A DNA stretch of 32,247 nt from Balneolaceae bacterium (GCA_007123715.1 SKKO01000130.1:1-32247); one strand, 5' to 3'. Positions 1-15,901 are shown, counted from the first letter of the stretch. Program-made: numbers and translations. The notes: generated by a model not told the origin, from the letters alone.

Positions 1-1
1 A

Positions 2-1744
2 TCCGCGTCGCCGGTTTTGCCTGCTATAAAGCCTGATCATCATAATGGTTACGATATCTACCCGGCATTTTCGCTCAAAACCGGCAAAATCGAACATGGA
101 TTTGATTCACTGGCAGCATTCATTTCGCAGCAGGATTCAGACAAAATAATTATGGACGGAAATATCGGGACTGACTGGGAATCAGTGATCGGTAATCTGT
201 CAAACGCATTGAAATTAAACAATGCCGAATATCTGTACTTTGATGTGAATTCCGCTTTACTTGCTGAAGATCACATTGATAAAATGATTGAAGGATATCT
301 GGGTGGAGATGACCCTGTATTCGGCAAACTGTACGAAGGCAATCTGGAAGATTTTTTTGACAAAACAAAGCTGGAAATTCTGAAATCGTCAGAAAACCTC
401 AAAACATTCGTCTACGGCACGGGTGCATCTCTTGCCGGAGTGGATTGCCCGGTCTTTTATGTTGACATTCCGAAAAATGAGATACAGTACAGGTCGAGGG
501 CCGGAAGCATTTGCAATATCGGTAAAGCGCATCCTGAAGATCCAAAATCCATGTATAAGCGCTTCTACTTTGTTGACTGGCAGGTTTGCAATCGCCATAA
601 ACAACATCTCCTTCCTGATTTATCTGCTATAGCTGATGGCCAGCGCGACGGGGATCTTAACTGGATGAAAGGAGAAGACCTGAGAGATGGCCTGGAGCAG
701 GCGGCCCAATCGCCCATCAGGGTCAGGCCCTGGTTTGAACCCGGAGTTTGGGGCGGTAAATGGATGCAGGAAAATTTTAACGGACTAAACCCGGATGCGG
801 AAAATTTTGCCTGGTCGTTTGAGCTTATTGCACCCGAAAACGGGGTAATATTTGAAAGTGATGGGAGATTATTGGAAATCGGATTTGAGTGGCTGATGTA
901 TCATTCGGGCCAATCCGTTCTTGGTAAAGATGCCGGCAGATATGGAACATACTTTCCGTTACGGTTCGACTATCTGGATACGATGGGGGGCGGTAACCTG
1001 TCTCTTCAGTGCCATCCGCAGACTGAGTACATACAAAATCATTTCGGAGAAATGATTACCCAGGACGAAACCTACTACATTCTGGATGCAGAGCCGGATG
1101 CCAGGGTTTATCTCGGATTCCGGGAAGGAATCGATCCGGCTGAATTTGAATCAGAATTGAATCGTTCGCATGAAAAGGGTGTATTTTTTGATGCCGATCA
1201 TTATGTTCAGTCATTCCCGGCCTCCAGACACGATCTGTTTCTCATTCCGGCCGGTACCATACACTGTTCAGGGAAAAATAATCTGGTACTGGAAATCAGC
1301 AACACACCCTATATTTACACCTTCAAGATGTACGACTGGCAGAGGCTGGATCTGGACGGGAAACCACGTCCGATCAACATAGACCGTGCAATGGAGAATC
1401 TCGATTTTAGACGCAGCGGCCGGATGGTTTCAGATGAACTGATCAGTAAACCGAAAGTGATTTCAGACAGTAACGACGTACGCATGCTTGACCTTCCGAC
1501 GCATCAAAGTCATCAGTACGGGGTACACAGGCTTGAAATTGTGAGCTCTGTAAAGGTGAATACGGAAGGGAAGTTCCAGGTAATTAATTTGGTTGAAGGT
1601 AAGGCTGTAAAAATTTTAGCCGGCAACAGGCAACTACAGCTGAATTTTGCGGAGACCATGATTATTCCGGCTGCAACAGGGGAATATATGATTGTAAATG
1701 AAGATGACAGCCCGGCCTTTATTATCAAAGCCTTTATGAAATGA
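2..1744 (+). CDS. Long-form class I mannose-6-phosphate isomerase-like protein (5' partial)
   Basis: The reading frame is open from base 2, and the first possible start inside the window is a TTG at base 17, so the true start is probably just upstream. Numbering below counts from that TTG. The C-terminal two thirds is a cupin-type phosphomannose isomerase, a zinc enzyme interconverting mannose-6-phosphate and fructose-6-phosphate in the cytoplasm. Likely zinc ligands are Gln331 and His333 in SLQCHP, Glu351 in QDETYY, and His416 in AGTIHCSG. The first ~190 residues form a separate domain, with GGDDPVFG and VYGTGASL motifs, that is found in ~575-590-residue homologues and is absent from the ~390-residue E. 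coli type. I see no intact P-loop in it. The stop overlaps the next start by 4 nt (ATGA), which implies translational coupling to the sugar porter. The family call is firm. The exact substrate is inferred. Confidence 0.85.
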   Translation, partial: SASPVLPAIKPDHHNGYDIYPAFSLKTGKIEHGFDSLAAFISQQDSDKIIMDGNIGTDWESVIGNLSNALKLNNAEYLYFDVNSALLAEDHIDKMIEGYLGGDDPVFGKLYEGNLEDFFDKTKLEILKSSENLKTFVYGTGASLAGVDCPVFYVDIPKNEIQYRSRAGSICNIGKAHPEDPKSMYKRFYFVDWQVCNRHKQHLLPDLSAIADGQRDGDLNWMKGEDLRDGLEQAAQSPIRVRPWFEPGVWGGKWMQENFNGLNPDAENFAWSFELIAPENGVIFESDGRLLEIGFEWLMYHSGQSVLGKDAGRYGTYFPLRFDYLDTMGGGNLSLQCHPQTEYIQNHFGEMITQDETYYILDAEPDARVYLGFREGIDPAEFESELNRSHEKGVFFDADHYVQSFPASRHDLFLIPAGTIHCSGKNNLVLEISNTPYIYTFKMYDWQRLDLDGKPRPINIDRAMENLDFRRSGRMVSDELISKPKVISDSNDVRMLDLPTHQSHQYGVHRLEIVSSVKVNTEGKFQVINLVEGKAVKILAGNRQLQLNFAETMIIPAATGEYMIVNEDDSPAFIIKAFMK

Positions 1745-3150
1745 ATAAGATCATGAAAAACGGCCATCCGCTATATCTTACTATTATTACCCTGATTGCA
1801 GCCGCAGGTGGTTTTCTGTTTGGTTTTGATATGGCCGTGATCTCCGGAGCTATTACCTTTGTACAGGCACAGTTTGATCTGACAGCCGTACAGGAAGGCT
1901 GGTTCGTTTCTTCTGCATTGATTGGCTGTATTTTGGGGGTGATTGTCTCCGGTGAAATGAGTGATCGTATTGGGAGAAAGCCCGCCTTGATCGCATCTGC
2001 GGCCCTGTTTTTACTTTCTGCGATCGGAACGGCAGCAGCGCCGGGATTTGCACTCCTGGTATCCGCAAGGCTGCTGGGCGGCATGGCTGTCGGGATTGCC
2101 TCTAATGTAGTACCGCTATACATATCGGAAATTGCTCCGGCACATATCCGGGGAAGGCTGGTGACCTGCTATCAGCTTGCTGTAACTGTAGGAATTCTTG
2201 TTGCATATATCTCCAACGCATGGCTGCTGAACCTATCGGAATCAGCTTCAGGCTTTTTGACAGAAGGTTTGTTTGGATTCATTCTTATCGATGAGACCTG
2301 GAGGGCTATGTTTGGAATAGAAGCTCTTCCTGCGATCATATTTTTAACCGGCCTGCTTATTATTCCCGAAAGCCCGCGATGGCTGATGCAAAAAAACAGG
2401 CACAATGAAGCAGAATCTGTACTCACCAAATTTGTTGGCAGCATCGATGCTCAAAAGAGTTTATCGGAAATCAGGGAGACCCTTATGGAAGTACAGGGCT
2501 CGTACAGAGAACTGTTCAAGCCGGGTCTTCGGGTAGCTCTTATGATTGGAATTTTACTACCGGTTTTTTCACAGTTTAGTGGAATCAATGCCATTATTTA
2601 TTATGGTCCTCGGATATTAAATGAGGCGGGGGTTGAGCTGAGTAGTGCCATGCACAGCCAGGTGTTACTCGGTTTTGCAAACATGATCTTTACTTTTATC
2701 GCGGTCTGGAAAGTTGACAGCCTGGGTAGGAGGCCGCTCTATCTTGTTGGAACGGCCGGCGCCATGATTTGTCTCGTTATTACAGGCTATTTTTTCTATA
2801 CCGGTGCCACAGGAAGTGTGTTTCTACTGGTAAGTGTAATAGCCTTCCTGGGTTTTTTCGCGTTTTCAATCGGCCCGCTTAAGTTTGTGATTGCATCCGA
2901 AATATTCCCGAACAGAATCCGGGGACGTGCTCTTGCACTCAGCATCATGGCCATGTGGATTGCTGATACAATTGTTGGCCAGATAACCCCGATTTTACTA
3001 GCTTCCGGCGGGGCTGCTTTTACTTTCTGGTTTTTTGCGTTTTTTTGCGGGATTGCCTTTCTGTTTATCTACAAAGCGGTGCCGGAAACAAAAGGAAAAT
3101 CACTTGAAGAAATTCAGAAAATGTGGATCGAAGTGAAATCGAAATCTTAA
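1741..3150 (+). CDS. MFS sugar porter (sugar:H+ symporter family)
   Basis: This 469-residue inner-membrane transporter has about 12 predicted membrane helices. It carries the full signature set of the MFS sugar porter family (XylE/GalP/GLUT-like): GGFLFGFDMAVISGA at 23-37, DRIGRK at 75-80, PESPRW at 209-214, QFSGINA at 278-284, DSLGRR at 326-331 and PETKG at 448-452. The ATG at 1741 overlaps the upstream stop; a second ATG at 1753 would remove four residues and is a possible alternative. Set between an isomerase and secreted alpha-mannosidases, it most likely imports free mannose released in the periplasm. That substrate is inference from context, since family members carry glucose, xylose, galactose and other monosaccharides. 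Confidence 0.92.
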   Translation: MNKIMKNGHPLYLTIITLIAAAGGFLFGFDMAVISGAITFVQAQFDLTAVQEGWFVSSALIGCILGVIVSGEMSDRIGRKPALIASAALFLLSAIGTAAAPGFALLVSARLLGGMAVGIASNVVPLYISEIAPAHIRGRLVTCYQLAVTVGILVAYISNAWLLNLSESASGFLTEGLFGFILIDETWRAMFGIEALPAIIFLTGLLIIPESPRWLMQKNRHNEAESVLTKFVGSIDAQKSLSEIRETLMEVQGSYRELFKPGLRVALMIGILLPVFSQFSGINAIIYYGPRILNEAGVELSSAMHSQVLLGFANMIFTFIAVWKVDSLGRRPLYLVGTAGAMICLVITGYFFYTGATGSVFLLVSVIAFLGFFAFSIGPLKFVIASEIFPNRIRGRALALSIMAMWIADTIVGQITPILLASGGAAFTFWFFAFFCGIAFLFIYKAVPETKGKSLEEIQKMWIEVKSKS

Positions 3151-3170
3151 AATGATATGATTCAGGCCTC

Positions 3171-5534
3171 ATGAAAAAAACGTTCTGTTTGGCAATGATA
3201 CTCTTTCTCGCAGCCGGTGCAGGCGATCCGGTTATGGCACAATCGGGCGGATATAATCAATATGTTGATCCAAATATCGGGTCGGCACATTCGCGATGGT
3301 TTTTTTACACGCCGGCTGCTCAGCCTTTCGGAATGGCCAAGCCGGCTCCTTCAACCAACGGCCAGTATGGGAATCGCTGGGGCTGGGAGGCAGTTGGCTA
3401 TGATCCCCGGCACGAATCGATCGAAGGCTTTGTGAATTTTCATGAATTCCAGATTGGCGGCATCTCGCTCATGGCTGCAACGGGGGAACTTAAAACAACA
3501 GCCGGACTTCTTGAGGAACCGGATAACGGTTACCGGTCACGGTTTTCGAAAGAGACTGAAATAGCCGGGCCGGGTTACTATAGCGTTCATCTTGATGATT
3601 ATGATATTACCGCAGAACTCACATCGACACCGCGGGTAGCCTTTCATCGTTATACCTTCCCGGCATCCGGCCAGTCACACATTATTATCGATGTGGGTAA
3701 CAGGCAGGGAGAAAGTGGGGAAGTGGCTGATGCCTTCGTGCATAAAGTATCAGACAATGAAGTAGAAGGATTTGTGATTACCCTGCCATCGTATGTGAGG
3801 CATTATCAGCCGGGTGGGACCGTGGGAATGTATTTCGTAGCCAGATGGGATAAGAAAGCCAGCAGCTATGGCACTTTTGTTGGAGAAAACCGGAGGCCCG
3901 GAGCATCATCCGTACAGGGCAGGGGCTCCGGAATGTATGTAACATTTGAAACAGAGGAAAATGAATCGGTAACCGTAAAAGTGGGGCTATCCTATACCAG
4001 TATCGAAAATGCCCGATTGAATCTCGAAATCGAAGCTGCAGGCCTTGATTTTGATACAGCACGCCATCAGGCCGAAGAAAAATGGGAAGAAATGCTCGGC
4101 CGTGTTGCCGTGGAAGGGGGCTCCATTGAAAACAGGATCAAGTTTTATACCGGACTCTATCATGCCATTCTTGGCCGGGGGCTGGCAAATGATGTAAACG
4201 GGGCCTACCGGATGAACAACAGTCTGATTGGTGAAATACCTTCCGATGAAGACGGAAAATTGTTATACAATCATTACAATACGGATGCGGTTTGGGGAGC
4301 TTTCTGGAACCTGGGTACTCTGTGGGCTATGGCCTATCCTGATTATCTGAGCGAATTTATCAACACACAGCTTGATGTTTTCAAAGAGAGTGGCTGGCTC
4401 TCGGATGGAATCGCCACATCAAAATACGTTTCCGGGGTAGGTACCAATTTCACCGGGCAGTTTATCGCATCAGCCTGGAACAGGGGTATAAAAGGGATCG
4501 ATCCCGAAACAGCTTGGGAAGCAGTTTATAAAAACGAAATGGGCTGGATGAACCGTCCGTTGGGTGCCGGTAAGGCCGATACAAAAGCATTTATCGAAAA
4601 AGGATATGTGCCCTTTGAATTTGATGATGAACACTATTCAAGCAGTTCGGCAAGGGCATCCCGGTTTTCTGCTTCTCATACCCTTGAATACAGTTTCAGC
4701 GCTTATGCTGCCGCTCAAATGGCAAGACAGCTTGGAAAATCAGATCATTATGCACGGTTTATGGAACTCTCCGAAGGATGGAAACTGCTCTATGATGAGG
4801 AAACGGGGTTTATAAGGCCGCGTGATCTGGACGGAAATTTTCTGGAAAATTTTGACCCTTCCGAACCATGGCGCGGGTTCCAGGAAGGAAATGCCTATCA
4901 GTACACCTTTTATGTACCTCATGATCCTGAGGGTTTGGTTTCTTTGATTGGAGAAGAGGTGTTTAGTGAACGACTGAACAGCCTGTTTGAACGAGCCGAG
5001 GAGGATGGCTTTTCAGGCGGTGAAACCATAGACGCATTTGCCGGGGTAGGAGGGGTTTATAATCATGGAAACCAGCCCAGCTTGCATATCTCATGGCTCT
5101 TTAATTATGCCGGTAAACCATGGCTGACCCAAAACTGGGTACGCAGGATTAGTAACGGGTTTTATGGCACAGATCCCGTTCATGGTTACGGGTACGGACA
5201 GGATGAAGACCAGGGGCAGCTCGGGGCATGGTTCGTACTGGCCGGTTTGGGATTGTTTGATGTAGCCGGCGGCAGCAGTTATGAACCAACACTGCAGGTA
5301 GCATTGCCTATGTTCGATCGCATAACTATCCAGCTTCATCCGGAACACTATCCCGGAAAGGAATTTGTGATTTCTGTTGAAGGTGACCCAACCGAACATT
5401 ACTTCATCGAATCGGCAAGCCTGAACGGACAAGCACTGGAGTCATTTTATTTTCCGTGGCAAACATTTATCAACGGTGGGCACCTTCATTTTATGAGTTC
5501 TGACGAGCCGGTGAATGTTGGAGTCACACATTAA
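3171..5534 (+). CDS. Secreted GH92 alpha-mannosidase
   Basis: This 787-residue protein has a type I signal peptide (MKKTFCLAMILFLAAGA..., likely cut after Ala23). The mature part starts with the GH92 N-terminal beta-domain (YVDPNIG at 31-37, later DNGYRSRF and YDITAELT) and continues into the (alpha/alpha)6 catalytic domain. GH92 enzymes are calcium-dependent inverting exo-alpha-mannosidases. The probable general acid is Glu572 in QEGNAYQ. The catalytic base region is Asp678-Glu679-Asp680 in QDEDQGQ. Length is normal for the family. Where many GH92 proteins read GNEP, this one reads GNQP (Gln635), so its linkage preference may not be alpha-1,2. It starts 20 bp after the porter stop and is probably co-transcribed with it. 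GH92 membership is secure. The linkage is unknown. Confidence 0.93.
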   Translation: MKKTFCLAMILFLAAGAGDPVMAQSGGYNQYVDPNIGSAHSRWFFYTPAAQPFGMAKPAPSTNGQYGNRWGWEAVGYDPRHESIEGFVNFHEFQIGGISLMAATGELKTTAGLLEEPDNGYRSRFSKETEIAGPGYYSVHLDDYDITAELTSTPRVAFHRYTFPASGQSHIIIDVGNRQGESGEVADAFVHKVSDNEVEGFVITLPSYVRHYQPGGTVGMYFVARWDKKASSYGTFVGENRRPGASSVQGRGSGMYVTFETEENESVTVKVGLSYTSIENARLNLEIEAAGLDFDTARHQAEEKWEEMLGRVAVEGGSIENRIKFYTGLYHAILGRGLANDVNGAYRMNNSLIGEIPSDEDGKLLYNHYNTDAVWGAFWNLGTLWAMAYPDYLSEFINTQLDVFKESGWLSDGIATSKYVSGVGTNFTGQFIASAWNRGIKGIDPETAWEAVYKNEMGWMNRPLGAGKADTKAFIEKGYVPFEFDDEHYSSSSARASRFSASHTLEYSFSAYAAAQMARQLGKSDHYARFMELSEGWKLLYDEETGFIRPRDLDGNFLENFDPSEPWRGFQEGNAYQYTFYVPHDPEGLVSLIGEEVFSERLNSLFERAEEDGFSGGETIDAFAGVGGVYNHGNQPSLHISWLFNYAGKPWLTQNWVRRISNGFYGTDPVHGYGYGQDEDQGQLGAWFVLAGLGLFDVAGGSSYEPTLQVALPMFDRITIQLHPEHYPGKEFVISVEGDPTEHYFIESASLNGQALESFYFPWQTFINGGHLHFMSSDEPVNVGVTH

Positions 5535-5561
5535 TTTTCTTTGAATAAAAATCAATACACC

Positions 5562-6845
5562 ATGAAACGATTAAACTATTTCATATTCCCGCTTATCATA
5601 TTACTTTCATGTTCTGCTGATCAGAATAACAGTGGACTGTTTGAACAGATTCAGAACGACCCAAATATTCCTGTTGTAAAACAGAAAGCTCTCGAAATCA
5701 TATCAACCGGATTTAATGCCGGCGACAGCTATTCAGAAGTATGGATTCGTGATTATAACACCTTTATTGAGCCTGCAATGGAAGTTCATGACCATGAGGT
5801 GATTAAAGAGAACCTTCGCATCTTCTTCAGGTTCCAGGCAGAGGATGGGGGAATTGTGGATGGTTTCAGACCATTTGTTGAAGGGGCGGGAGGTTATGAT
5901 TATATCTACACCGATCTCGAACCCGATTTGATGGCCCATAAAAATACGGTGGAAACCGATCACGAGTCTTCCCTTATTCAAACGGTTTATAAATATATTA
6001 AAAGGTCGGGCGATACCACGTTTCTGGATGAGGTAATTGACGGTATCACAATCGCTGACAGATTGTTGCTGGCCGTTGATTTCCTGATGGAACACCGAAT
6101 GAGCCAGGAATACGGTCTTATATGGGGCGCCACAACCGCCGACTGGGGTGATGTGCAGCCCGAACATGAATGGGGTGTATATTTAACCGAAGATACCCAC
6201 TATGCTGTAGAAGTTTATGATAATGCCATGTTCGTGATAGCCTTGCAGAATCTTGCCGAACTCTTGCCAGATTATGGGGACTTCCTGGGTGATATTCATG
6301 ATTTGATTTCTGCCAATATCATGGCCCATCTGTGGGATGAGGAAAATCGGCAGTTTGTGCCACACCGCTATCTTGACGGATCTCCTTTTCCTGACGATTT
6401 TAATGAGGATGAAATTTATCAGCATGGGGGTACGGCAGTTGCCATCGAAGCCGGATTACTAACCCGTGATCAGGTCTATGAAGCGTTGCAGCGCATGCGC
6501 GCGAATGTAGTGGCTGCAAATGCCGCTACCATCGGCTTAACCCTCTACCCTCCATATCCTGAAGGATTTTTCCTCAATCCGGGGATGTACCCTTACGGTT
6601 ATCAGAATGGCGGCGACTGGACATGGTTTGGCGGGCGCATGATACAACAACTGATCCGATACGGCTTTGTAGAAGAAGCGTATGAAGAAGCACGGCCCAT
6701 GTTCGATAGGGTAATTGAAAATGATGGGTTTTACGAATGGTACACCCCAGCGAATGAACCCATGGGGTCAGGCACATTCAGAGGATCGGCCGGGGTACTT
6801 TTTACCGCCATCGAAATGTTCGAAGAATGGGCTGAAAACCAGTAA
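5562..6845 (+). CDS. Lipoprotein, (alpha/alpha)6 six-hairpin glycosidase-like
   Basis: The 427-residue product begins MKRLNYFIFPLIILLSC, a lipoprotein signal with lipobox LLSC and lipidated Cys17. A TTG 21 nt upstream is in frame, but the ATG gives the better signal peptide. The body is helical, with paired motifs typical of six-hairpin glycosidases: EVWIRDYNTF at 59-68 (compare the W-x-R-D motif of debranching-enzyme and GH63/GH100-like families), ETDHESSL at 131-138, and a striking GATTADWGDVQ at 189-199. I cannot assign it to a numbered GH family. Candidate acids are Asp64, Asp133, Glu135, Asp194 and Asp197. It lies between two GH92 genes (27 bp after one, 23 bp before the other), so a role in trimming the same alpha-mannoside, or a cap on it, is likely by context. 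It could instead be an inactive binding protein. Confidence 0.72.
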   Translation: MKRLNYFIFPLIILLSCSADQNNSGLFEQIQNDPNIPVVKQKALEIISTGFNAGDSYSEVWIRDYNTFIEPAMEVHDHEVIKENLRIFFRFQAEDGGIVDGFRPFVEGAGGYDYIYTDLEPDLMAHKNTVETDHESSLIQTVYKYIKRSGDTTFLDEVIDGITIADRLLLAVDFLMEHRMSQEYGLIWGATTADWGDVQPEHEWGVYLTEDTHYAVEVYDNAMFVIALQNLAELLPDYGDFLGDIHDLISANIMAHLWDEENRQFVPHRYLDGSPFPDDFNEDEIYQHGGTAVAIEAGLLTRDQVYEALQRMRANVVAANAATIGLTLYPPYPEGFFLNPGMYPYGYQNGGDWTWFGGRMIQQLIRYGFVEEAYEEARPMFDRVIENDGFYEWYTPANEPMGSGTFRGSAGVLFTAIEMFEEWAENQ

Positions 6846-6868
6846 TAAAAAAATAAAATTAACGCGCC

Positions 6869-9800
6869 ATGAGAATCCTCAAAAATACAGTACTACTATA
6901 TATTTTGATGACCATTCCTGCTTTTCTTTATGCTTTAAATAGTGATAGAAATATATCTGAGGAGCTTGTAGAAAATGAAATTAAAATGATTTGGAGTATC
7001 GGGGAGAAAGATGGGTCAGCTAATGAATTTGCTCTTGCCCCGGATGGATTTGAAGATTTCAAGTATCAGGATTTTGGATTCGAGGATAAATTTTTTGTAG
7101 TTGGTTTTCACGATGTAAAGGAAGAAATCCCCTATGTTTTGCCGGGTCCGGTTGATACCTGGGGAGGCACATGGTCAACTTCAGGTTGGCGCAGTAACCA
7201 GATAACGATTCTGTTTTCTGTAGATGAGCTGCCAGATAACGGCGAATATACACTGTACATTGAGCTTGCGGATTTTGCGAAAGAATTTTTGCCTCTGATG
7301 AAAGTTTACATAAACAACCAGGAGCAGCGAATTGAACTTGAGGCGGAGGGATATGACCGGAAGTCTCAACGTTCGCCTTCGAAAACGGAACCCTTTGTAA
7401 GTGAAAATGCATTGCAAGGAGATGCTTCCGATGCCACTCCAATTACTGTTTCCATACCGGTTGAAGAGAATATTATCCAAAAAAACGGGAACAGGGTGAC
7501 GATAACGGTTTTGGAAGGGTCATGGATTATGTTTGATCAGATACGCCTTGAAGGACCGGAATTAACAATCCGGCAGTCAGAGCGGCTTTTTATAAGAGAA
7601 TCGCATCCGGCAGATTATCAGCTCGAAACAGAACAAGGCAATGTCCAGCCATTATTAATAAATGTTGAACACCTTACAGGAGAACCGGTTTTACGTGTAG
7701 AGCTGGATAGAGAACCCATTTTTGAAGAAACCGTGGAGATGGGGCAGTACGATTTTGAAGCTCCCATGCCGGCAGTATCTGAACCGGTTACGAGTGAATA
7801 CAGGATTGTAGTTGATAACAAAGTTATTGAATCGGGTACGGTTGAACGTTCACCGCAAAAAATCCAAAACCTTCCTGGTTATGTTGATACACGTATGGGT
7901 GCCGCTCATGCAAGGTGGATGTATACCCCGGGGCCATGGATGCCATTCAGTATGGTAAAATTGAGTCCCATTAACCAAAATTCAGGATGGCAGGCCGGAT
8001 ATGATTCGATTTTTGAAAGTATCGGGACTTTCAGCCATATTCACGAATGGACGATGGCAGGCCTTGGGATATTTCCAACAAACGGCCCCCTGCAAACTCA
8101 AATTGGTGATGAGTTAAATCCGGATTCCGGCTATCGCTCACGGATCGATAAAAAAAGCGAGGAAGCCCCCATCGGGTATTACAAAGCTCACCTGACTGAT
8201 TATGACATCACAGCAGAACTGACAGCAACGACAAGAAGCGGCCTGCTGAGATTTACCTTTCCCGAAGAACGCGACAGTGCGCGTGTGCTGATTGATCTCC
8301 ATATTCCTGCTGAGTACGATTATGTACTGAAGGAAGTTGATGTAAGAAAAGTTTCAGACCACAGGCTGGAGGGTTATTCCGATCAGTATTCGGGAGGTGT
8401 CTGGAGCCAGGATGCAGATCAGGATTATACCGTTCATTTTGTGATAGAGTTCGATCAGCCGATACTTTCAATGGGAGGTTGGGTTGAGGATGAGTTGTTT
8501 GAGGGTGAACATCTTTATGCAAAAGATATCAAAGACGCCGGCCTGATTGTCTATTTTGATCAAAAAGAGAATGCTGTTGTGCAGATTCGCACGGGAATCA
8601 GTCTGGTGAGCATTGAAAACGCTTCTGAGAATCTAAAAACCGAGATGAGCGAGCCATTTGGCTGGGATTTTGATGCAGTGAGGCAAAACCAGGTGGACAC
8701 GTGGAGCGAGCTAATGGGCAGAGTACTCATCAGCACAAACAACCGGCTGGAAAAAAAGAGGTTTTATAACACGGTTTATCGATCCATCAGCAGCCGTAAT
8801 ACCTGGAGTGATGTGAATGGCGAGTGGCGCGGAACAGATGGAACTGTTCACCGGCTGATGAATCCGGATCATGTTGCACTGGGATGTGATGCTTTTTGGA
8901 ATACATTCTGGAACCTGAACCAGATGTGGAACCTGATAACACCGGAATGGAGCAGCCGGTGGGTGAATTCCCAGTTGGCCATGTACGATGCCTACGGATG
9001 GCTTGCCAAGGGGCCGGCCGGAATGAATTTTGTTCCGGTGATGGTTGCTGAGCATGAAATTCCTCTGATTGTAGGAGCCTATCAGATGGGAATCCGGGAT
9101 TTTGATGCCGAAAAAGCCCTGGAAGCAGCCGTAAAAATGCAGACGACTCCTGCTCAAAAAGTTCATAATGGATTTGCAGGGAACAGAGACCTTGAAGCCT
9201 ATCTTCAGTATCAATATGTTCCATACGATCTCGGCCGGTTTTCTAACAGTTTGGAGTATTCATTTGATGACTGGACCGTTGGCCAGTTTGGAAAAGCGCT
9301 CGGAGACAGGGATGTCTATGAGATGTTTAATGATAGGGGTTACTGGTGGAAAAATGCCATTTCAGATACAGGGTTTGCCCACATGAGAGACAGCGATGGA
9401 AATTGGCTCGAAGATTTCGACCCTTTTGAATCCGGAGCAAACCGTCACTATGTTGAAGGAAATGCCTGGCAGCTCACCCATTTTGTTCCGCAGGATGTAC
9501 CCGCTCTCATTGAGTATGTCGGAAAAAGCAGGTTTATCGAAAACCTGGAATGGGGCTTTGAAACCAGTTATTCACAACGGTTCAATGCCTTGAACGACCA
9601 ATACTGGGAAATTGCTGTGGACCAGGGAAATCAGCAGTCGATGCAGTTTGCATTTCTTTTTAACTGGGCGGGTAAACCGTGGCTGACACAAAAATGGAGT
9701 CGTGCTGTTATGGACAAATTTTACGGTTTTGGAGTTGAAAATGCCTACCTGGGTGATGAAGACCAGGGGCAGCTGAGTGCATGGTTTGTGATGGCGGCCA

Positions 9801-10096
9801 TCGGACTATTTCAGACTGACGGTGGCACGCGTGTAAACCCAATCTATGAAATTGCAAGCCCGTTATATGAAAGAGTGGAAATTAATTTGGGCGGAAGGTA
9901 CAACCGCGGTGAAATATTTGTGATTGAGGCTAAAAACGCATCGAGAAAAAACAAATATGTGCAAAGTGCAATGCTAAACGGTACAGAATTATCAACGTTT
10001 TATTTCGATGCTTATGAGTTGCTGAATGGAGGAGAGCTTATTCTTGAAATGGGGCCTGAGCCAAATAAAAACTGGGGGCTCATGAATCATGATTGA
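6869..10096 (+). CDS. Secreted GH92 alpha-mannosidase with N-terminal PL4-like beta-sandwich
   Basis: This is a 1075-residue exported enzyme (signal peptide MRILKNTVLLYILMTIPAFLYA). Residues ~25-235 resemble the carbohydrate-binding-like third domain of PL4 rhamnogalacturonan lyases: a WGGTW region, then strands, then the ending GSWIMFDQIRLEGPE. A further ~100-residue beta-rich linker follows. The GH92 module starts near residue 338 (YVDTRMGAAHARW) and runs to the end. The likely general acid is Glu863 in VEGNAWQ, and the base region is Asp963-Glu964-Asp965 in GDEDQGQ. Where others read GNEP it reads GNQQ (Gln922). Most GH92 proteins are about 750 residues, so the extra ~310 residues are an added module rather than a frame artefact. 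It follows the lipoprotein glycosidase by 23 bp. The GH92 call is secure. The PL4-like domain is a by-eye match. Confidence 0.9.
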   Translation: MRILKNTVLLYILMTIPAFLYALNSDRNISEELVENEIKMIWSIGEKDGSANEFALAPDGFEDFKYQDFGFEDKFFVVGFHDVKEEIPYVLPGPVDTWGGTWSTSGWRSNQITILFSVDELPDNGEYTLYIELADFAKEFLPLMKVYINNQEQRIELEAEGYDRKSQRSPSKTEPFVSENALQGDASDATPITVSIPVEENIIQKNGNRVTITVLEGSWIMFDQIRLEGPELTIRQSERLFIRESHPADYQLETEQGNVQPLLINVEHLTGEPVLRVELDREPIFEETVEMGQYDFEAPMPAVSEPVTSEYRIVVDNKVIESGTVERSPQKIQNLPGYVDTRMGAAHARWMYTPGPWMPFSMVKLSPINQNSGWQAGYDSIFESIGTFSHIHEWTMAGLGIFPTNGPLQTQIGDELNPDSGYRSRIDKKSEEAPIGYYKAHLTDYDITAELTATTRSGLLRFTFPEERDSARVLIDLHIPAEYDYVLKEVDVRKVSDHRLEGYSDQYSGGVWSQDADQDYTVHFVIEFDQPILSMGGWVEDELFEGEHLYAKDIKDAGLIVYFDQKENAVVQIRTGISLVSIENASENLKTEMSEPFGWDFDAVRQNQVDTWSELMGRVLISTNNRLEKKRFYNTVYRSISSRNTWSDVNGEWRGTDGTVHRLMNPDHVALGCDAFWNTFWNLNQMWNLITPEWSSRWVNSQLAMYDAYGWLAKGPAGMNFVPVMVAEHEIPLIVGAYQMGIRDFDAEKALEAAVKMQTTPAQKVHNGFAGNRDLEAYLQYQYVPYDLGRFSNSLEYSFDDWTVGQFGKALGDRDVYEMFNDRGYWWKNAISDTGFAHMRDSDGNWLEDFDPFESGANRHYVEGNAWQLTHFVPQDVPALIEYVGKSRFIENLEWGFETSYSQRFNALNDQYWEIAVDQGNQQSMQFAFLFNWAGKPWLTQKWSRAVMDKFYGFGVENAYLGDEDQGQLSAWFVMAAIGLFQTDGGTRVNPIYEIASPLYERVEINLGGRYNRGEIFVIEAKNASRKNKYVQSAMLNGTELSTFYFDAYELLNGGELILEMGPEPNKNWGLMNHD

Positions 10097-10148
10097 AATT
10101 TTGCCTCAGATTATTCCAGTAAAATTACTAAAAGCAAAAAAATTTAAG

Positions 10149-13100
10149 ATGAAAATCACCGGAATTATTCTGTTATTCTTAATCTTGCCGGTTTTTCTAT
10201 TTGCCGAAAATGGTTTAGAGATTAAATCAGATGTGAAGACTGCATATTTTGTTGATGTTGATGATTTGCTGTTGTCCGGCTACAGCCAAAAGATCAGCGG
10301 TACCGATTTTTTCTACCGAACGGCCATACCCGGGTTTAGGGAGACAATGATTGTACGGGCAACAGATGGCAACTGGTCGATGGAATGGGAGACAGACACG
10401 GTGCCGGAACAGATCGAAACAGATTATGTCTCTTTTGTGTGGGCCGCAAACCTGGATGCAACCGACCGGCCGGTGCCTATGACTCTTACCTTAAATGGGC
10501 ATCAAGAAGTCCGGTTTTATTTAACACGCGACAGGGAATGGAAAGTGCAAAACGAGGCAGGTACCTCTCTTTGGTTTATGGAAAATATTACTGATCCGAA
10601 TGAAGATTATTACGGATTTATGGTTTTGCAGGTACCTGCAGAAAACCTTGTTCCGGGAGAGCCTCTAAGGCTTAAAGTTACCGGGGGACGGGAACAATCA
10701 AATGCCTGGTATATGACTGTGAAAACACCGGTCAGAGAGCAAATGAGTGTGTATTCTGATCCGGCACTTTTCATGGAAAGTGGAAAGATGTTTCAGCCCC
10801 TTACAATCGATCTTATCTATTTGGGCAATCCGGGTAATGCTTTTCTTAAAATTGGTGCAGAGATTGAAAAAGAAGTCAATCTGATATTTGGATACAACAG
10901 ATTTACAGCCAGGAGCCCGCAGGTGAATATAGATACACCTGCTGAAGCTGTACTGGAGGCTGCTGGCCGAAAAATTGTGACGGAGGCACTTATCAAGCCT
11001 GTGAGAAGATGGAAAATGCATTTTGTGCAAAATACCCACACTGATATTGGATATACACGCCCTCAGACAGAAATTATGAGCGATCTGATCCGCCATCTCG
11101 ACCTGGCGCTGGATTATGCAGATGAAACGGATCATTTTCCTGATGATTCCAGGTTCCGGTGGACAGCCGAAAACACGTGGGCCGTTGATCAGTTCCTGAA
11201 AAACAGAACAGCTGAACAAATTGACCGGCTCAGGCGAAGGGTAGAAGAGGGAAGAATTGAGCTGACCGGGATGTACCTGAACTTTGATGAGTTGCCTGAT
11301 GAACAGTCACTTGCAAGGTCTCTTGAACCCATTGACCGGATTCGTTCTCACGGTTTTGAGATTCAGGCAGCCATGCAGAATGACGTGAATGGCATAGGCT
11401 GGGCATTTAGTGATTATTTCTCTTCTCTGGGTGTAAAATATCTGAATATGGGTACACACGGGCATAAAGCACTCATCGCATTTGATTACCCAACGGCGTT
11501 TTGGTGGGAATCACCCTCGGGTAACCGGATGCTTGCATTTCGTGCCGAGCACTATCATACAGGAAATACCCGTTTTCACATCAGCCGGGAAGATTTTGAC
11601 TATTTCGAGAAAGAGCTGCTTTCGTACTTGAATGAATTGGCGGACCGCGGCTATCCTCATGACGTGATGATGATTCAGCATTCCGGCTACCTTACAGATA
11701 ATTCACCCCCATCCATTCGCCCTGCTGAAATGATCCGGAAATGGAATGAAAAATATGAATGGCCAAAACTTCGCCTGTCAGTCATCAGCGATTTCTTTGA
11801 GGAAATTGAAGAGCTTCATGCCGGGGAACTGCCGGTTTATCGTGCTGCATGGCCCGACTGGTGGGTAGACGGATTCGGGTCGGGAGCCAGGGAGGTGGGG
11901 GCCACACGACAAGCCCATATGGATATCATAGCCGGGCAGGGACTCTTAAGCATGGCCCGGTTGCTGGGCCATGAACTGCCCGAGCACTCCGAACAGCAAA
12001 TGGCTTTGTCGAATGATGCTCTTCTGTTTTACGGCGAACATACATTTGGCTCCCATGCCAGTGTGAGTGATCCCTACGGCAAAGGTACCAAGGAAATGAG
12101 GCGTTTAAAAGAATCGTTTGCATGGGAAGCTTCAAGGCGAACAAAACTTGTTCAGGAGGATGCATTTGGATTACTTCAGTCGCATTTTACGAATCTTGAT
12201 AAAACCAGCATCGTTATATACAACACAACACTGCGAATCCGAAGCGGTATTTCACGAATATTTATTGATCACGAAACGGTACCGCGGGGTACACACATTC
12301 AGCTACGTGATGATAAAGGCCGGATACATCCTGCACAATTACTTGAAAATATTCACGGCGGTTCCTACTGGGCACTTCGGGTTGGTGAAATTCCGTCATT
12401 CGGGTTCAGGCAGTTTATTTTGGAACAAGTAGAGGATGGAATAAACCGATCTCTTCAGCCTGCCGGGCAACAGATATTTGAAAATGAATGGTACCGCCTT
12501 GAAATTGATCCGGGGCGGGGTGTTGTTACCGGTTTATTTGATAAAGAACTGGAAAAAGAGCTGACTGATGGAAATGCAGCGTGGGGATTTGGTCAATTCA
12601 TATATGAACGTCTTGGAAACCGCGTAGAATTGGATCAGTATTACCTTGAAACCTACGACCGGTATCCTTTGGAATCAGTCCGGTTTGATGGTTACCAAAA
12701 AGGAGATATCTGGGATACAATCCGATTTACCGGCAATACGATAGCTGCCATTGGCGATGATGGTTTCAGCCTGGAAATCAAGATGCATCATGCCGACAAG
12801 CAGCTTGATTTTACCTACAACATCCGGAAAAAACCGGTTATAGATCCCGAGAGTATCTATGTCTCCTTTCCTTTTGCTCTTGATGGCGGAGAAATCTTTT
12901 TTGATGTGCCGGGAGGTATGATACAGGCTGGAATACATCAGATTCCGGGCTCATCGAATGACTGGAATATGGTGCAAAATGTTGCCGTGGTCAGGAATCA
13001 TGACGCTCAAATCATTTTGAGCAGCCATGAAGCCCCGCTCATGCAAATGGGGAATATCAATACAGGAAGGTTTAATGCAGGCGCTGTCCCGGATTTCCCG

Positions 13101-13550
13101 CATATCTATGGATGGCCGATGAATAACTATTGGGTAACCAATTTTAATGCCGATCAAAAAGGAGAATTCGAATGGACGTATAACATCACTTCCGGCAATA
13201 GTGTGAATAACAGTGACGCGATGATATTTGCAATGAATAACCGTCAGATTCTTGTGTCAAGACTTATTGCCGGGATGTCTGGCAGTGATGCGGTGCCGGT
13301 TAACAGGTCATTGCTTGATGTATTTCCGGACCATATTCATGTTGTCACTGTAAAACCAAAGGAAAATGGCAAAATACTGTTTCACTTGCGTGAAACGGAT
13401 GGAAGGCACACAACCATCCAGTCGTTGTTTGGTGATGAGATAACTGTATGGGAAACAGATGTGAACGGAAACAGGATTTATCCACATCCTGTTCAATCGG
13501 GCGAATTTCAACCTTATGAAGTCAGGTTTTTTGAGGTTGAGGTGAAATGA
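10149..13550 (+). CDS. Secreted GH38-type alpha-mannosidase
   Basis: I chose the ATG at 10149 because it gives a clean signal peptide (MKITGIILLFLILPVFLFA). The in-frame ATG at 10089 would put 20 extra residues in front and overlap the upstream gene. The product is 1133 residues. Residues ~20-290 form a beta-rich N-terminal region of unknown role. The GH38 catalytic domain follows: metal ligands His297 and Asp299 in THTDIGY, the probable nucleophile Asp412 in QNDVNG, and His631 in YGEHTFGSHA. The C-terminal half (~750-1133) is the usual GH38 beta-sandwich region. GH38 enzymes are retaining, zinc-dependent alpha-mannosidases. Many bacterial ones are cytoplasmic, so export here is notable. It is the last gene of the cluster and is followed by a 122-bp gap containing a possible promoter. 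Linkage specificity cannot be read from the sequence. Confidence 0.88.
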   Translation: MKITGIILLFLILPVFLFAENGLEIKSDVKTAYFVDVDDLLLSGYSQKISGTDFFYRTAIPGFRETMIVRATDGNWSMEWETDTVPEQIETDYVSFVWAANLDATDRPVPMTLTLNGHQEVRFYLTRDREWKVQNEAGTSLWFMENITDPNEDYYGFMVLQVPAENLVPGEPLRLKVTGGREQSNAWYMTVKTPVREQMSVYSDPALFMESGKMFQPLTIDLIYLGNPGNAFLKIGAEIEKEVNLIFGYNRFTARSPQVNIDTPAEAVLEAAGRKIVTEALIKPVRRWKMHFVQNTHTDIGYTRPQTEIMSDLIRHLDLALDYADETDHFPDDSRFRWTAENTWAVDQFLKNRTAEQIDRLRRRVEEGRIELTGMYLNFDELPDEQSLARSLEPIDRIRSHGFEIQAAMQNDVNGIGWAFSDYFSSLGVKYLNMGTHGHKALIAFDYPTAFWWESPSGNRMLAFRAEHYHTGNTRFHISREDFDYFEKELLSYLNELADRGYPHDVMMIQHSGYLTDNSPPSIRPAEMIRKWNEKYEWPKLRLSVISDFFEEIEELHAGELPVYRAAWPDWWVDGFGSGAREVGATRQAHMDIIAGQGLLSMARLLGHELPEHSEQQMALSNDALLFYGEHTFGSHASVSDPYGKGTKEMRRLKESFAWEASRRTKLVQEDAFGLLQSHFTNLDKTSIVIYNTTLRIRSGISRIFIDHETVPRGTHIQLRDDKGRIHPAQLLENIHGGSYWALRVGEIPSFGFRQFILEQVEDGINRSLQPAGQQIFENEWYRLEIDPGRGVVTGLFDKELEKELTDGNAAWGFGQFIYERLGNRVELDQYYLETYDRYPLESVRFDGYQKGDIWDTIRFTGNTIAAIGDDGFSLEIKMHHADKQLDFTYNIRKKPVIDPESIYVSFPFALDGGEIFFDVPGGMIQAGIHQIPGSSNDWNMVQNVAVVRNHDAQIILSSHEAPLMQMGNINTGRFNAGAVPDFPHIYGWPMNNYWVTNFNADQKGEFEWTYNITSGNSVNNSDAMIFAMNNRQILVSRLIAGMSGSDAVPVNRSLLDVFPDHIHVVTVKPKENGKILFHLRETDGRHTTIQSLFGDEITVWETDVNGNRIYPHPVQSGEFQPYEVRFFEVEVK

Positions 13551-13672: not shown

Positions 13673-14590
13673 ATGTTGTTGGCAACTCACATATTTAATA
13701 ACAGGGATCGGATCACCATCATGATAATAATGATGCTACTGATCCCGGCGTGTACAGATTTATCCGGTACAGAAGATGCAGATACAAGAGTAATCGACTA
13801 CCAATGGCCCCGCGAATATTACCAGGCGGTATGGGGCAGCTCGCCTGATGATATATTTGTGGTTGGATCAAATGCAACCATTGTACACTACAATGGTGAA
13901 GAATGGAGGGTCATGGAAAATCCGGCGACCCTGAGGTTAAATGGTGTTTGGGGCAGTTCAGCAGACAATGTCTTCGCCGTTGGGGAAGGTGGTCAGATAA
14001 TTCATTACGATGGGAGCCAATGGACAGAATCCCCGGCCCATATTACAAGCAGGCTTCAGGATATATGGGGAACAGCTCCCAATCATATTTTTGCAGTTGG
14101 TGCCGCCGGAACCGTACTCTTTTTTAACGGAGATTTCTGGACCAGGGTCGACACCCCGATAAGCGATGAGATTTACAGTATTTGGGGCACCTCGGCAGAA
14201 AATATTTATGCTGTTTCTTCAGGTGGTAGCGTGCTCAAATATAATGGCAATGAATGGAAGGTGATCACGAGCGGATGGCCCACCTTTTTTAAAATATGGG
14301 GCACTTCCGATCAGAATATTTTTGCAGTCGGTTCCGGTGGAACCGTCGTTCATTACGACGGTATCGAATGGCAAAAAATGCTGAGTTCTACAGATAAAGG
14401 ATTATATGGCGTGTGGGGAAACTCCCCTGATAATATAACGGCAGTAGGTATTGAGGGCACAATTGTTCAGTACAACGGAAAAGACTGGCGGAAACAAGTC
14501 AGTATTACCCCCGAAAATTATACAGATATCTGGGGTATGAGAGAAACCGTAATTCTTGTCGGCGGATTTGGTACTATAATAAAACAGTGA
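13673..14590 (+). CDS. Beta-propeller lipoprotein with seven WG-type repeats
   Basis: The 305-residue product has a lipoprotein signal: a charged NNRDR stretch, then ITIMIIMMLLIPAC, with lipidated Cys27. An internal ATG at 13721 keeps the lipobox but loses the positive charge, so I kept 13673, which also has AGG-rich sequence in front. The rest is six full repeats of about 38-40 residues plus a partial seventh, following the pattern (V/I)WG(S/T)S..NIFAVG..GTI.HY(D/N)G..W. Repeat starts are spaced evenly. Seven units suggest a seven-bladed propeller facing the periplasm or the cell surface. Such repeats occur in secreted proteins of unknown function and may bind ligands or partners. It is probably a separate transcription unit after the mannosidase cluster. 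Its function is unknown. Confidence 0.85.
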   Translation: MLLATHIFNNRDRITIMIIMMLLIPACTDLSGTEDADTRVIDYQWPREYYQAVWGSSPDDIFVVGSNATIVHYNGEEWRVMENPATLRLNGVWGSSADNVFAVGEGGQIIHYDGSQWTESPAHITSRLQDIWGTAPNHIFAVGAAGTVLFFNGDFWTRVDTPISDEIYSIWGTSAENIYAVSSGGSVLKYNGNEWKVITSGWPTFFKIWGTSDQNIFAVGSGGTVVHYDGIEWQKMLSSTDKGLYGVWGNSPDNITAVGIEGTIVQYNGKDWRKQVSITPENYTDIWGMRETVILVGGFGTIIKQ

Positions 14591-14860
14591 AGCATTTCAA
14601 ATTTGCAGCAACCGAGCCCCAATCAACTCGTAAATGGGTGCAAGGTTAATCCCCAATAAAATAACTTTCTTTTTCTGTTTTGTACATTGTGCGTCAATTT
14701 TTATGTTGAGTGTAGGTTAAACTTCTTTGACACACACGTTCCTGAGAATTACCTTTTAGGATGGGCAGTCCGCAACCCTTAACCGTATTCAGCATCTTAT
14801 GCCCCGCACTCTGCACAAATGCTAATCAACACAGAACCAACTATTTAATCTTGTCAAATC
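14591..14860 (+). other. Intergenic region before the phosphotriesterase-like gene
   Basis: This 270-bp stretch has no convincing coding frame. Its one recognisable element is the promoter-like TTTG / TACCTTTT pair listed separately. I saw no hairpin with a T-run that would terminate the propeller gene. Confidence 0.4.
14726..14757 (+). promoter_or_regulatory. Candidate Bacteroidota-type promoter
   Basis: TTTG at 14726-14729, a 20-nt spacer and TACCTTTT at 14750-14757 (7 of 8 to TAnnTTTG) match the known -33/-7 arrangement of Bacteroidota sigma factors. It would give a leader of about 100 nt in front of the gene at 14861. Confidence 0.45.
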
Positions 14861-15901
14861 ATGCCATTGAAAATAATACTGATGCCATCCATTTTTGTTT
14901 TACTATTCCTATCCTGCCAGGAAGCTGAACATGAACAACGAATTATGACTGTAAATGGCGCCATTTTTTCTTCCGATTTGGGTGTTACACTGATTCATGA
15001 GCATGTGCTTGTGGATTGGATCGGTGCAGACAGTACCGGCTACCACCGCTGGGACCGTGCGGACGTTGCAGAGCGGGTACTTCCCTATTTAATGGAGGCT
15101 GCCGGGCGCGGTGTGGATGCCATAGGTGAATTTACGCCTGCCTATCTTGGCAGGGACCCTTTTATTCTGCTTGAACTCTCACGGCGTACCGGTATGTACT
15201 TGATAACAAATACCGGGTTCTATGGGGCGGTGGATAACCGGTTTATACCTGCTTATGCATACGATGAAACCTCAGCGGAAATCGCGGCACGCTGGATTGA
15301 TGAATTTCACAATGGAATTGACGGAAGCGGAGTGCGCCCCGGTTTTATGAAAATTTCTGTGGCAGAACACAGTGAACTTTCTCCTTTGCACCAGAAAATA
15401 GTTGAAGCGGCTGCCATGACTCATATTGAGACGGGAATGACTATTTTCTCACATACTATTGGTGATATTCCCGCTTTGGCACAAATTGAATTGTTGGAGC
15501 AGCTGGGGCTGAAACCTTCGTCATGGGTCTGGACTCATGCCCAAACCGGTACAATAGAAGCGAATATAAGGCTGGCGGAAAAAGGAGCATGGATTTCACT
15601 TGATAACGTCATGTTCGATCCGTCTCGTGATGAAGGCCAAGAAGGCAGTATTGACTGGTATAAGGATCGAATTATTGCTTTACGTGACGCCGGACATCTT
15701 AACAAAATACTGATTTCACATGATGCCGGCTGGTATGATGTTGGTGAGCCGAATGGCGGGGGTTATCGCGGATATACGGACATTTTTGACTTTCTCATAT
15801 CACGGCTTTTAGAGAGTGGTTTAACGGATGAAGAAATCGAACAATTGCTTGTTAAAAACCCTGCTAATGTGTTCAGCCTGAGGATAAGAAGTGCCAAATA
15901 G
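14861..15901 (+). CDS. Phosphotriesterase-family amidohydrolase, lipoprotein
   Basis: The 346-residue product starts with a lipoprotein signal (MPLKIILMPSIFVLLFLSC, lipidated Cys19). The mature protein is a TIM-barrel metal hydrolase of the phosphotriesterase family. All expected metal-site positions are visible: His46 and His48 in LIHEH, the carbamylated Lys164 in GFMKIS, His198 in FSHTIG, His226 in WTHAQTG, and Asp288 in SHDAG. Family members hydrolyse organophosphates, lactones or unknown esters, and the native substrate here cannot be told. A lipid-anchored form implies action in the periplasm or at the surface, unlike the soluble cytoplasmic homologue of E. coli. It stands alone between a 270-bp and a 335-bp gap. 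Confidence 0.9.
   Translation: MPLKIILMPSIFVLLFLSCQEAEHEQRIMTVNGAIFSSDLGVTLIHEHVLVDWIGADSTGYHRWDRADVAERVLPYLMEAAGRGVDAIGEFTPAYLGRDPFILLELSRRTGMYLITNTGFYGAVDNRFIPAYAYDETSAEIAARWIDEFHNGIDGSGVRPGFMKISVAEHSELSPLHQKIVEAAAMTHIETGMTIFSHTIGDIPALAQIELLEQLGLKPSSWVWTHAQTGTIEANIRLAEKGAWISLDNVMFDPSRDEGQEGSIDWYKDRIIALRDAGHLNKILISHDAGWYDVGEPNGGGYRGYTDIFDFLISRLLESGLTDEEIEQLLVKNPANVFSLRIRSAK

Follow-up and report, generated by a model that had tools for sequence, protein, structure and literature searches.

The window analysed here is an entire contig (C127, 32,247 bases) of a Balneolaceae genome that is assembled in 390 contigs and is 98% complete. Six open reading frames lie on its + strand between positions 2 and 13550, with intergenic spacings of -4, 20, 27, 23 and -8 bases, and the next gene starts 122 bases further on; these spacings are compatible with a single operon. 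Open reading frame calls and family matches agree with the earlier note on this DNA, confirming the six adjacent genes that it claimed. Base 1 is the contig end and falls inside gene 1. The last 121 bases of a second contig of the genome, C154 (11007-11127), are the same as the first 121 of the window, which we read as an assembly-graph overlap. Signal peptides and export were judged by eye from the N termini, and Balneolaceae bacterium DLM2.Bin24 (G020), the closest syntenic relative, served for comparison. The features are as follows.

C154 9180-9905, + strand: GntR/UTRA regulator, upstream of gene 1
C154 10087-11127, + strand: ROK half of gene 1, found by a search with the G020 fusion protein
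Window 1-121, no strand: contig-end overlap with C154, exact over 121 bases (100% identity)
Window 2-1744, + strand: gene 1, the C-terminal 580 amino acids of a fusion of a ROK kinase and a phosphomannose isomerase (PMI)-like protein, its N-terminal part cut off by the contig end
Window 1741-3150, + strand: gene 2, MFS sugar porter, predicted inner-membrane import (PF00083, E = 5e-120; TIGR00879)
Window 3171-5534, + strand: gene 3, GH92 protein with signal peptide, GH92a type, pocket motif W-G-A-F-W (PF07971, 1.5e-125; PF17678)
Window 5541-6845, + strand: gene 4, lipoprotein, bare (alpha/alpha)6 barrel of an uncharacterised family (model pLDDT 91.0)
Window 6869-10096, + strand: gene 5, GH92 protein with CBM-like N-terminal domain (amino acids 41-227) and signal peptide (PF14683, 6e-13; PF17678; PF07971)
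Window 10089-13550, + strand: gene 6, GH38-family protein with signal peptide (PF01074, 3e-31; PF07748, 8e-8)

A genome search found that C154 encodes residues 1-347 of the full-length gene-1 homologue of G020, and the contig also carries a KorAB-like pair and a cytochrome-c-like lipoprotein upstream. Across the junction the order is KorAB-like pair, cytochrome-c-like lipoprotein, GntR/UTRA regulator, ROK::PMI-like fusion, MFS porter, GH92, gene 4 and GH92, and it is identical in G020. Downstream of the six genes, positions 13673-15901 of the window encode two lipoproteins that are conserved in G020, one with repeats of the WGxSxxxIFAVG type and one of the phosphotriesterase family (PF02126). 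Here and below, genome-wide statements rest on family searches and protein searches.

Full-length ROK::PMI-like fusions are present in G020, in the congener Rhodohalobacter sulfatireducens WB101 (G015) and in two further genomes (G005 and G009). Residues 230-580 of gene 1 have the type I PMI (bicupin) fold (model pLDDT 91.5; Z = 31.9 over 310 residues against 1qwr), and these C-terminal 350 residues have the fold and metal ligands in common with ManA, the ligands Gln, His, Glu and His being kept in 60 of 60 PMI-like sequences. The protein differs from ManA in its fusion to ROK, in an extra N-terminal domain of about 230 residues and in two substitutions. In all 60 sequences the Lys proposed to transfer the proton (Lys116 of BaM6PI; PMC4718643) is replaced by Gln and the Arg of the TYR motif by Lys, whereas ManA controls keep both; the pair of changes could be a function-preserving swap. 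The extra domain (window 2-700, residues 1-230 of gene 1), which belongs to PMI-like proteins of about 590 amino acids, has no family match. Gene 1 scores 26.5 bits against the NCBIfam ManA equivalog model, below the cut-off of 116.2. No other ManA match was found in the genome, and this fits a PMI-like domain that does the ordinary PMI job. The ROK zinc motif did not serve as a marker, since it is also missing from the ROK proteins of congeners that were checked. The porter encoded by gene 2 is a clear family member, with 400.4 bits against TIGR00879 (cut-off 237.8).

The same set of genes recurs far beyond this genome. The gene-4 family has at least 525 relatives in GTDB contigs, and the best 80 of these come from Bacteroidota (77), Balneolota (2) and one record labelled Alphaproteobacteria, which is possibly misbinned. 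The best 80 loci include GH92 in 68, a PMI-like gene in 60, a GntR regulator in 47 and ROK in 48, in addition to fused copies and a second ROK type, together with one of two MFS types; these counts do not represent independent events, because the loci were picked for having gene 4 and for resembling the window. At 40 control GH92 loci, gene 4, the PMI-like gene, the GntR regulator and the GH38 type of gene 6 were all absent, and ROK matched at 2. In Balneolaceae and Zhouia the ROK and PMI-like proteins are fused, and elsewhere the operon encodes them separately; this ties both to one pathway. The operon is widespread in Bacteroidota, and within the genus gene 4 occurs in only 4 genomes, including the source genome. 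No account of this combination of genes turned up in literature searches.

Several related loci carry further genes, the first two of the following as read from translations. One (L031; G005:C20, 9106-16578) has DUF1549/DUF1553-like genes of planctomycete style, a DUF1501-like gene and an NHL-repeat-like gene between the MFS porter and gene 4. The locus of R. sulfatireducens (L034; G015:C83, 1034-8553) has added GH38-like, mannonate-dehydratase-like, lactonase-like beta-propeller, epimerase-like and SDR genes, which may give this locus an oxidative route for sugar as well. At a third (L069; G009:C211), the GntR regulator and ROK-PMI stand with DUF1080-like, GMC-oxidoreductase-like and gluconate-2-dehydrogenase-subunit-3-like genes, and GH92 is replaced; the uptake module is thus also combined with degradative modules of other kinds.

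The earlier note had described the cluster as lacking SusC/SusD and had proposed that a pair directly upstream would count against this. Neither the window nor its continuation on C154 has a SusC/SusD pair, and the G020 locus has none either, so the description stands for the locus and for its closest relative. It does not extend to the genome, which has 14 SusD matches, or to the operons of two congeners: in R. sulfatireducens a SusC/SusD pair sits between the MFS porter and the glycosidases, and in a second congener (G007) the order is PMI, MFS, SusC, SusD. Cassette loci of Sphingobacteriaceae likewise carry SusC/SusD. A survey with profiles built from the source genome's own proteins placed SusD within 10 kb, in fetched flanks, at 9 of 58 full-length cassette loci and at 6 of 37 random Bacteroidota GH92 loci, and we accordingly reject the idea that the absence is unusual. 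The SusC/SusD pair is an optional attachment to the cassette. Elsewhere in the source genome, contig C78 (L230; G000:C78, 1779-13394) carries SusC/SusD followed by DUF1080-like, PQQ/cupredoxin-like, GatZ-like and PIG-L-like genes, with SusC cut by the contig end.

The GH92 assignments of genes 3 and 5 are secure, as the N-terminal (PF17678) and catalytic (PF07971) domains match far above cut-off; gene 5 is of the GH92b type, with pocket motif W-N-T-F-W. In characterised GH92 enzymes the mannose at subsite -1 is contacted, in BT3130 numbering, by Asp353 (which bridges O3 and O4), Trp390 (O4), Met400 (stacking) and Ca2+ (O2 and O3) (PMC5930347). Sequences from the gene-4 loci and contig C328 were compared with controls, which were high-scoring GH92 hits from 26 genomes and are not an even sample. 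Asp353 is Gly, Asn or Leu in 107 of 117 aligned sequences (Asp in 43 of 46 controls); all 107, the clade members, have Gly for Trp390 (Trp in 36 of 46 controls) and Trp for Arg356 (Arg in 43 of 46). The catalytic acid Glu is kept in 107 of 107 members and the base Asp in all 105 that have a residue there, and the clade enzymes are probably active because both are retained. With BT3990, BT3130, BT3965, SpGH92 and NnGH92 they share the fold family and the catalytic Glu and Asp, whereas Asp353, Trp390 and Arg356 are substituted throughout the clade. In a tree with the controls, made by a quick method with no bootstrap and with some long branches that meet elsewhere, a single branch (SH-aLRT 100) sets the changed-pocket proteins apart, consistent with one change.

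These residues bear on the substrate label. The enzymes resemble mannose enzymes, but the earlier 'alpha-mannoside' reading is doubtful, given that both residues that bind O4 of mannose are lost in the GH92 clade and that the PMI-like domain is without its proposed catalytic Lys. Compensation may have left plain mannose as the substrate. The linkage-specificity rules of other GH92 enzymes cannot be transferred to this clade. A change from HGNE to GNQ was considered as a shift of linkage specificity at subsite +1 and was dropped: published work places His584 and Glu585 in a different loop, and the Glu of HGNE is also Gln in 8 of 46 control GH92 proteins. No assayed member of the GH92 clade, the gene-4 family or the PMI-like family is known to us or was found in the literature searched. 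The genome has a third GH92 of the same pocket-changed clade (L068; G000:C328, 3-2381, - strand), with a lipoprotein-like N terminus; it adjoins an aldehyde dehydrogenase-like gene on a contig without gene 4, and its nearest relatives are the control GH92 proteins L216 and L222.

Gene 4, between the two GH92 genes, has no Pfam or NCBIfam match over cut-off, the only hit being to GH94 (20.8 bits against a cut-off of 27). Its likely start is the ATG at 5562 (MKRLNYFIFPLIILLSC), and a lipobox pattern occurs in 68 of 87 family members. The model matches known folds with Z = 32-35 over 336-370 residues, the nearest being GH100 neutral invertase (Z = 35.2, 345 residues), GH94 phosphorylases (Z = 35.2, 368 residues) and GH63 mannosylglycerate hydrolase (Z = 32.4, 337 residues). 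It has the barrel fold and the positions of the candidate acid and base in common with these families; it differs from them in being a bare-barrel lipoprotein with only 16-18% identity and no family match over cut-off. Alignment sets D204 (TTADWGD), the candidate acid, against the Asp in the ADWND motif of GH94, and E399 (NDGFYEW), the candidate base, against the Glu in the NDKFPEYYD stretch of invertase. In GH94 that Asp is the general acid, and in GH100 that Glu is the base. D204 and E399 are both invariant in 50 relatives. On the model, gene 4 would likeliest be an inverting hydrolase anchored as a lipoprotein. Two other assignments were set aside: GH195 is GH99-like, and GH125 is not supported, with no PF06824 match in the genome.

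The GH38 gene is an accessory of the cassette: it occurs in the window and in 8 of the best 80 gene-4 loci, with no match in G020. The HTDIGYT and MQNDVNG stretches of gene 6 are invariant in 8 relatives. A congener without gene 4 has a homologue that is 73% identical (L226; G013:C118, 2927-6349) and contains one in-frame TAA stop.

We consider it rather probable that these genes form a GntR/UTRA-regulated catabolic operon by which a manno-like sugar is freed outside the cytoplasm and taken up as the monosaccharide. The analysis establishes the gene content and spacing, the regulator and the fusion, the conservation of the cassette, the clade structure, the residue changes and the folds; from these we infer the enzyme activities, the order of the steps and the sugar. 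The two GH92 enzymes, the gene-4 lipoprotein and, here, GH38 would be exported to cut the glycan and release monosaccharide, which the MFS porter would import. The ROK domain would then phosphorylate the sugar, and the fused PMI-like domain would isomerise the product toward a ketose phosphate, which in the case of mannose would be fructose 6-phosphate, with the GntR/UTRA regulator presumably sensing a metabolite of the pathway. The earlier proposal, in which breakdown reaches the monosaccharide outside the inner membrane and import comes afterwards, is supported by the MFS porter, by the kinase-isomerase-like fusion and by the occurrence of the same set across Bacteroidota. Its suggestion of high-mannose N-glycan or yeast mannan as the substrate fared less well: family searches gave no match to GH76 or GH125 in the genome, which argues against yeast mannan or an N-glycan core.

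The sugar may be other than plain mannose, to judge from the residues discussed above. The family-wide changes in sugar recognition in the GH92 and PMI-like proteins make a modified or unusual manno-like glycone about as likely as unmodified terminal D-mannose, and we give plain mannose a little less than an even chance, and the same to an O3/O4-altered mannose or a different manno-like sugar taken together. We put forward only tentatively that the cassette is dedicated to a manno-like sugar other than D-mannose or to O3/O4-altered mannose; in that reading the GH92 clade with its rebuilt pocket, a new (alpha/alpha)6 glycosidase family and a ROK and PMI-like pair with altered substrate residues would all be specific for that sugar. 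An ordinary alpha-mannoside operon, in which GH92, gene 4 and GH38 are exo-alpha-mannosidases of differing linkage and ROK-PMI makes fructose 6-phosphate, is plausible to a similar, less than even, degree. The family names and the company of GH38, the PMI fold with its retained metal ligands, the retained GH92 acid and base, and the status of the PMI-like gene as the only ManA-like gene of the genome all suit it; the loss of both O4-contacting residues in every clade member, the Gln in place of the proposed catalytic PMI Lys and a genome without GH76 or GH125 do not. Less probable, and in our view unlikely, is a substituted mannose (for example with an O-sulfate or O-methyl group at O3/O4) whose substituent is removed before or after import, which would make the route a variant of the one that marine Bacteroidota use for sulfated mannan. 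A GH92 enzyme that releases mannose-6-sulfate is already known (PMC13063451), so the specificity of the family can shift, a gene with the S1-sulfatase motif occurs in 10 of 80 related loci, and at one locus (L105) gene 4 stands next to sulfatases and a GH99-like protein. However, the motif was not found in the window, C154 or C328 and is absent from most related loci, and the pocket changes lie at O3/O4 whereas the known sulfated case concerns O6. An L,D-heptose, with its extra carbon at C6 and sedoheptulose-7-phosphate as the product, was considered and left aside for want of evidence; the pocket change is at O4.

A further alternative touches the outer-membrane step only and is compatible with the regulated release-and-import operon that we prefer. 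The lack of SusC/SusD may be merely local, with oligosaccharides entering through a pair encoded elsewhere and the exported enzymes acting in the periplasm, as in a split polysaccharide utilization locus (PUL); this is a real possibility that we hold slightly below even. The SusC and SusD of C78 are 62% and 52% identical to the pair in the R. sulfatireducens operon, with the source genome's other SusC proteins at about 31%, and the gene order in G007 also favours it. Against it, the C78 pair adjoins DUF1080-like and GatZ-like genes, with no mannosidases when read by eye, and co-regulation of the pair with the operon is conjectural.

Known systems resemble the cassette in part. The alpha-mannan and N-glycan PULs of Bacteroidota (in B. 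thetaiotaomicron and Salegentibacter, and the sulfated-mannan PUL of Polaribacter) likewise group several exported GH92 enzymes with other glycosidases in one locus, but they are built around SusC/SusD and the endo-enzymes GH76, GH99/GH195 and GH18, whereas here SusC/SusD is missing from the locus and GH76 from the genome, the uptake module is of the MFS-ROK-PMI type, and the GH92 enzymes belong to a different clade. The N-glycan carbohydrate-processing locus of S. pneumoniae (GH92, GH38, GH125, ROK, GH29 and GH20C; PMC5215778) also places GH92, GH38 and ROK in one operon, but it has an oligosaccharide ABC importer in place of a monosaccharide porter, no PMI fusion and a canonical GH92 pocket.

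Alpha-mannosidase is the routine annotation of GH92 genes, and their presence in marine and gut communities is taken as a sign that mannan is used. If a GH92 clade with a different pocket is indeed linked to an unassigned glycosidase family, such inferences would be wrong for many genomes, and the clade would point to a new specificity that can be assayed directly.
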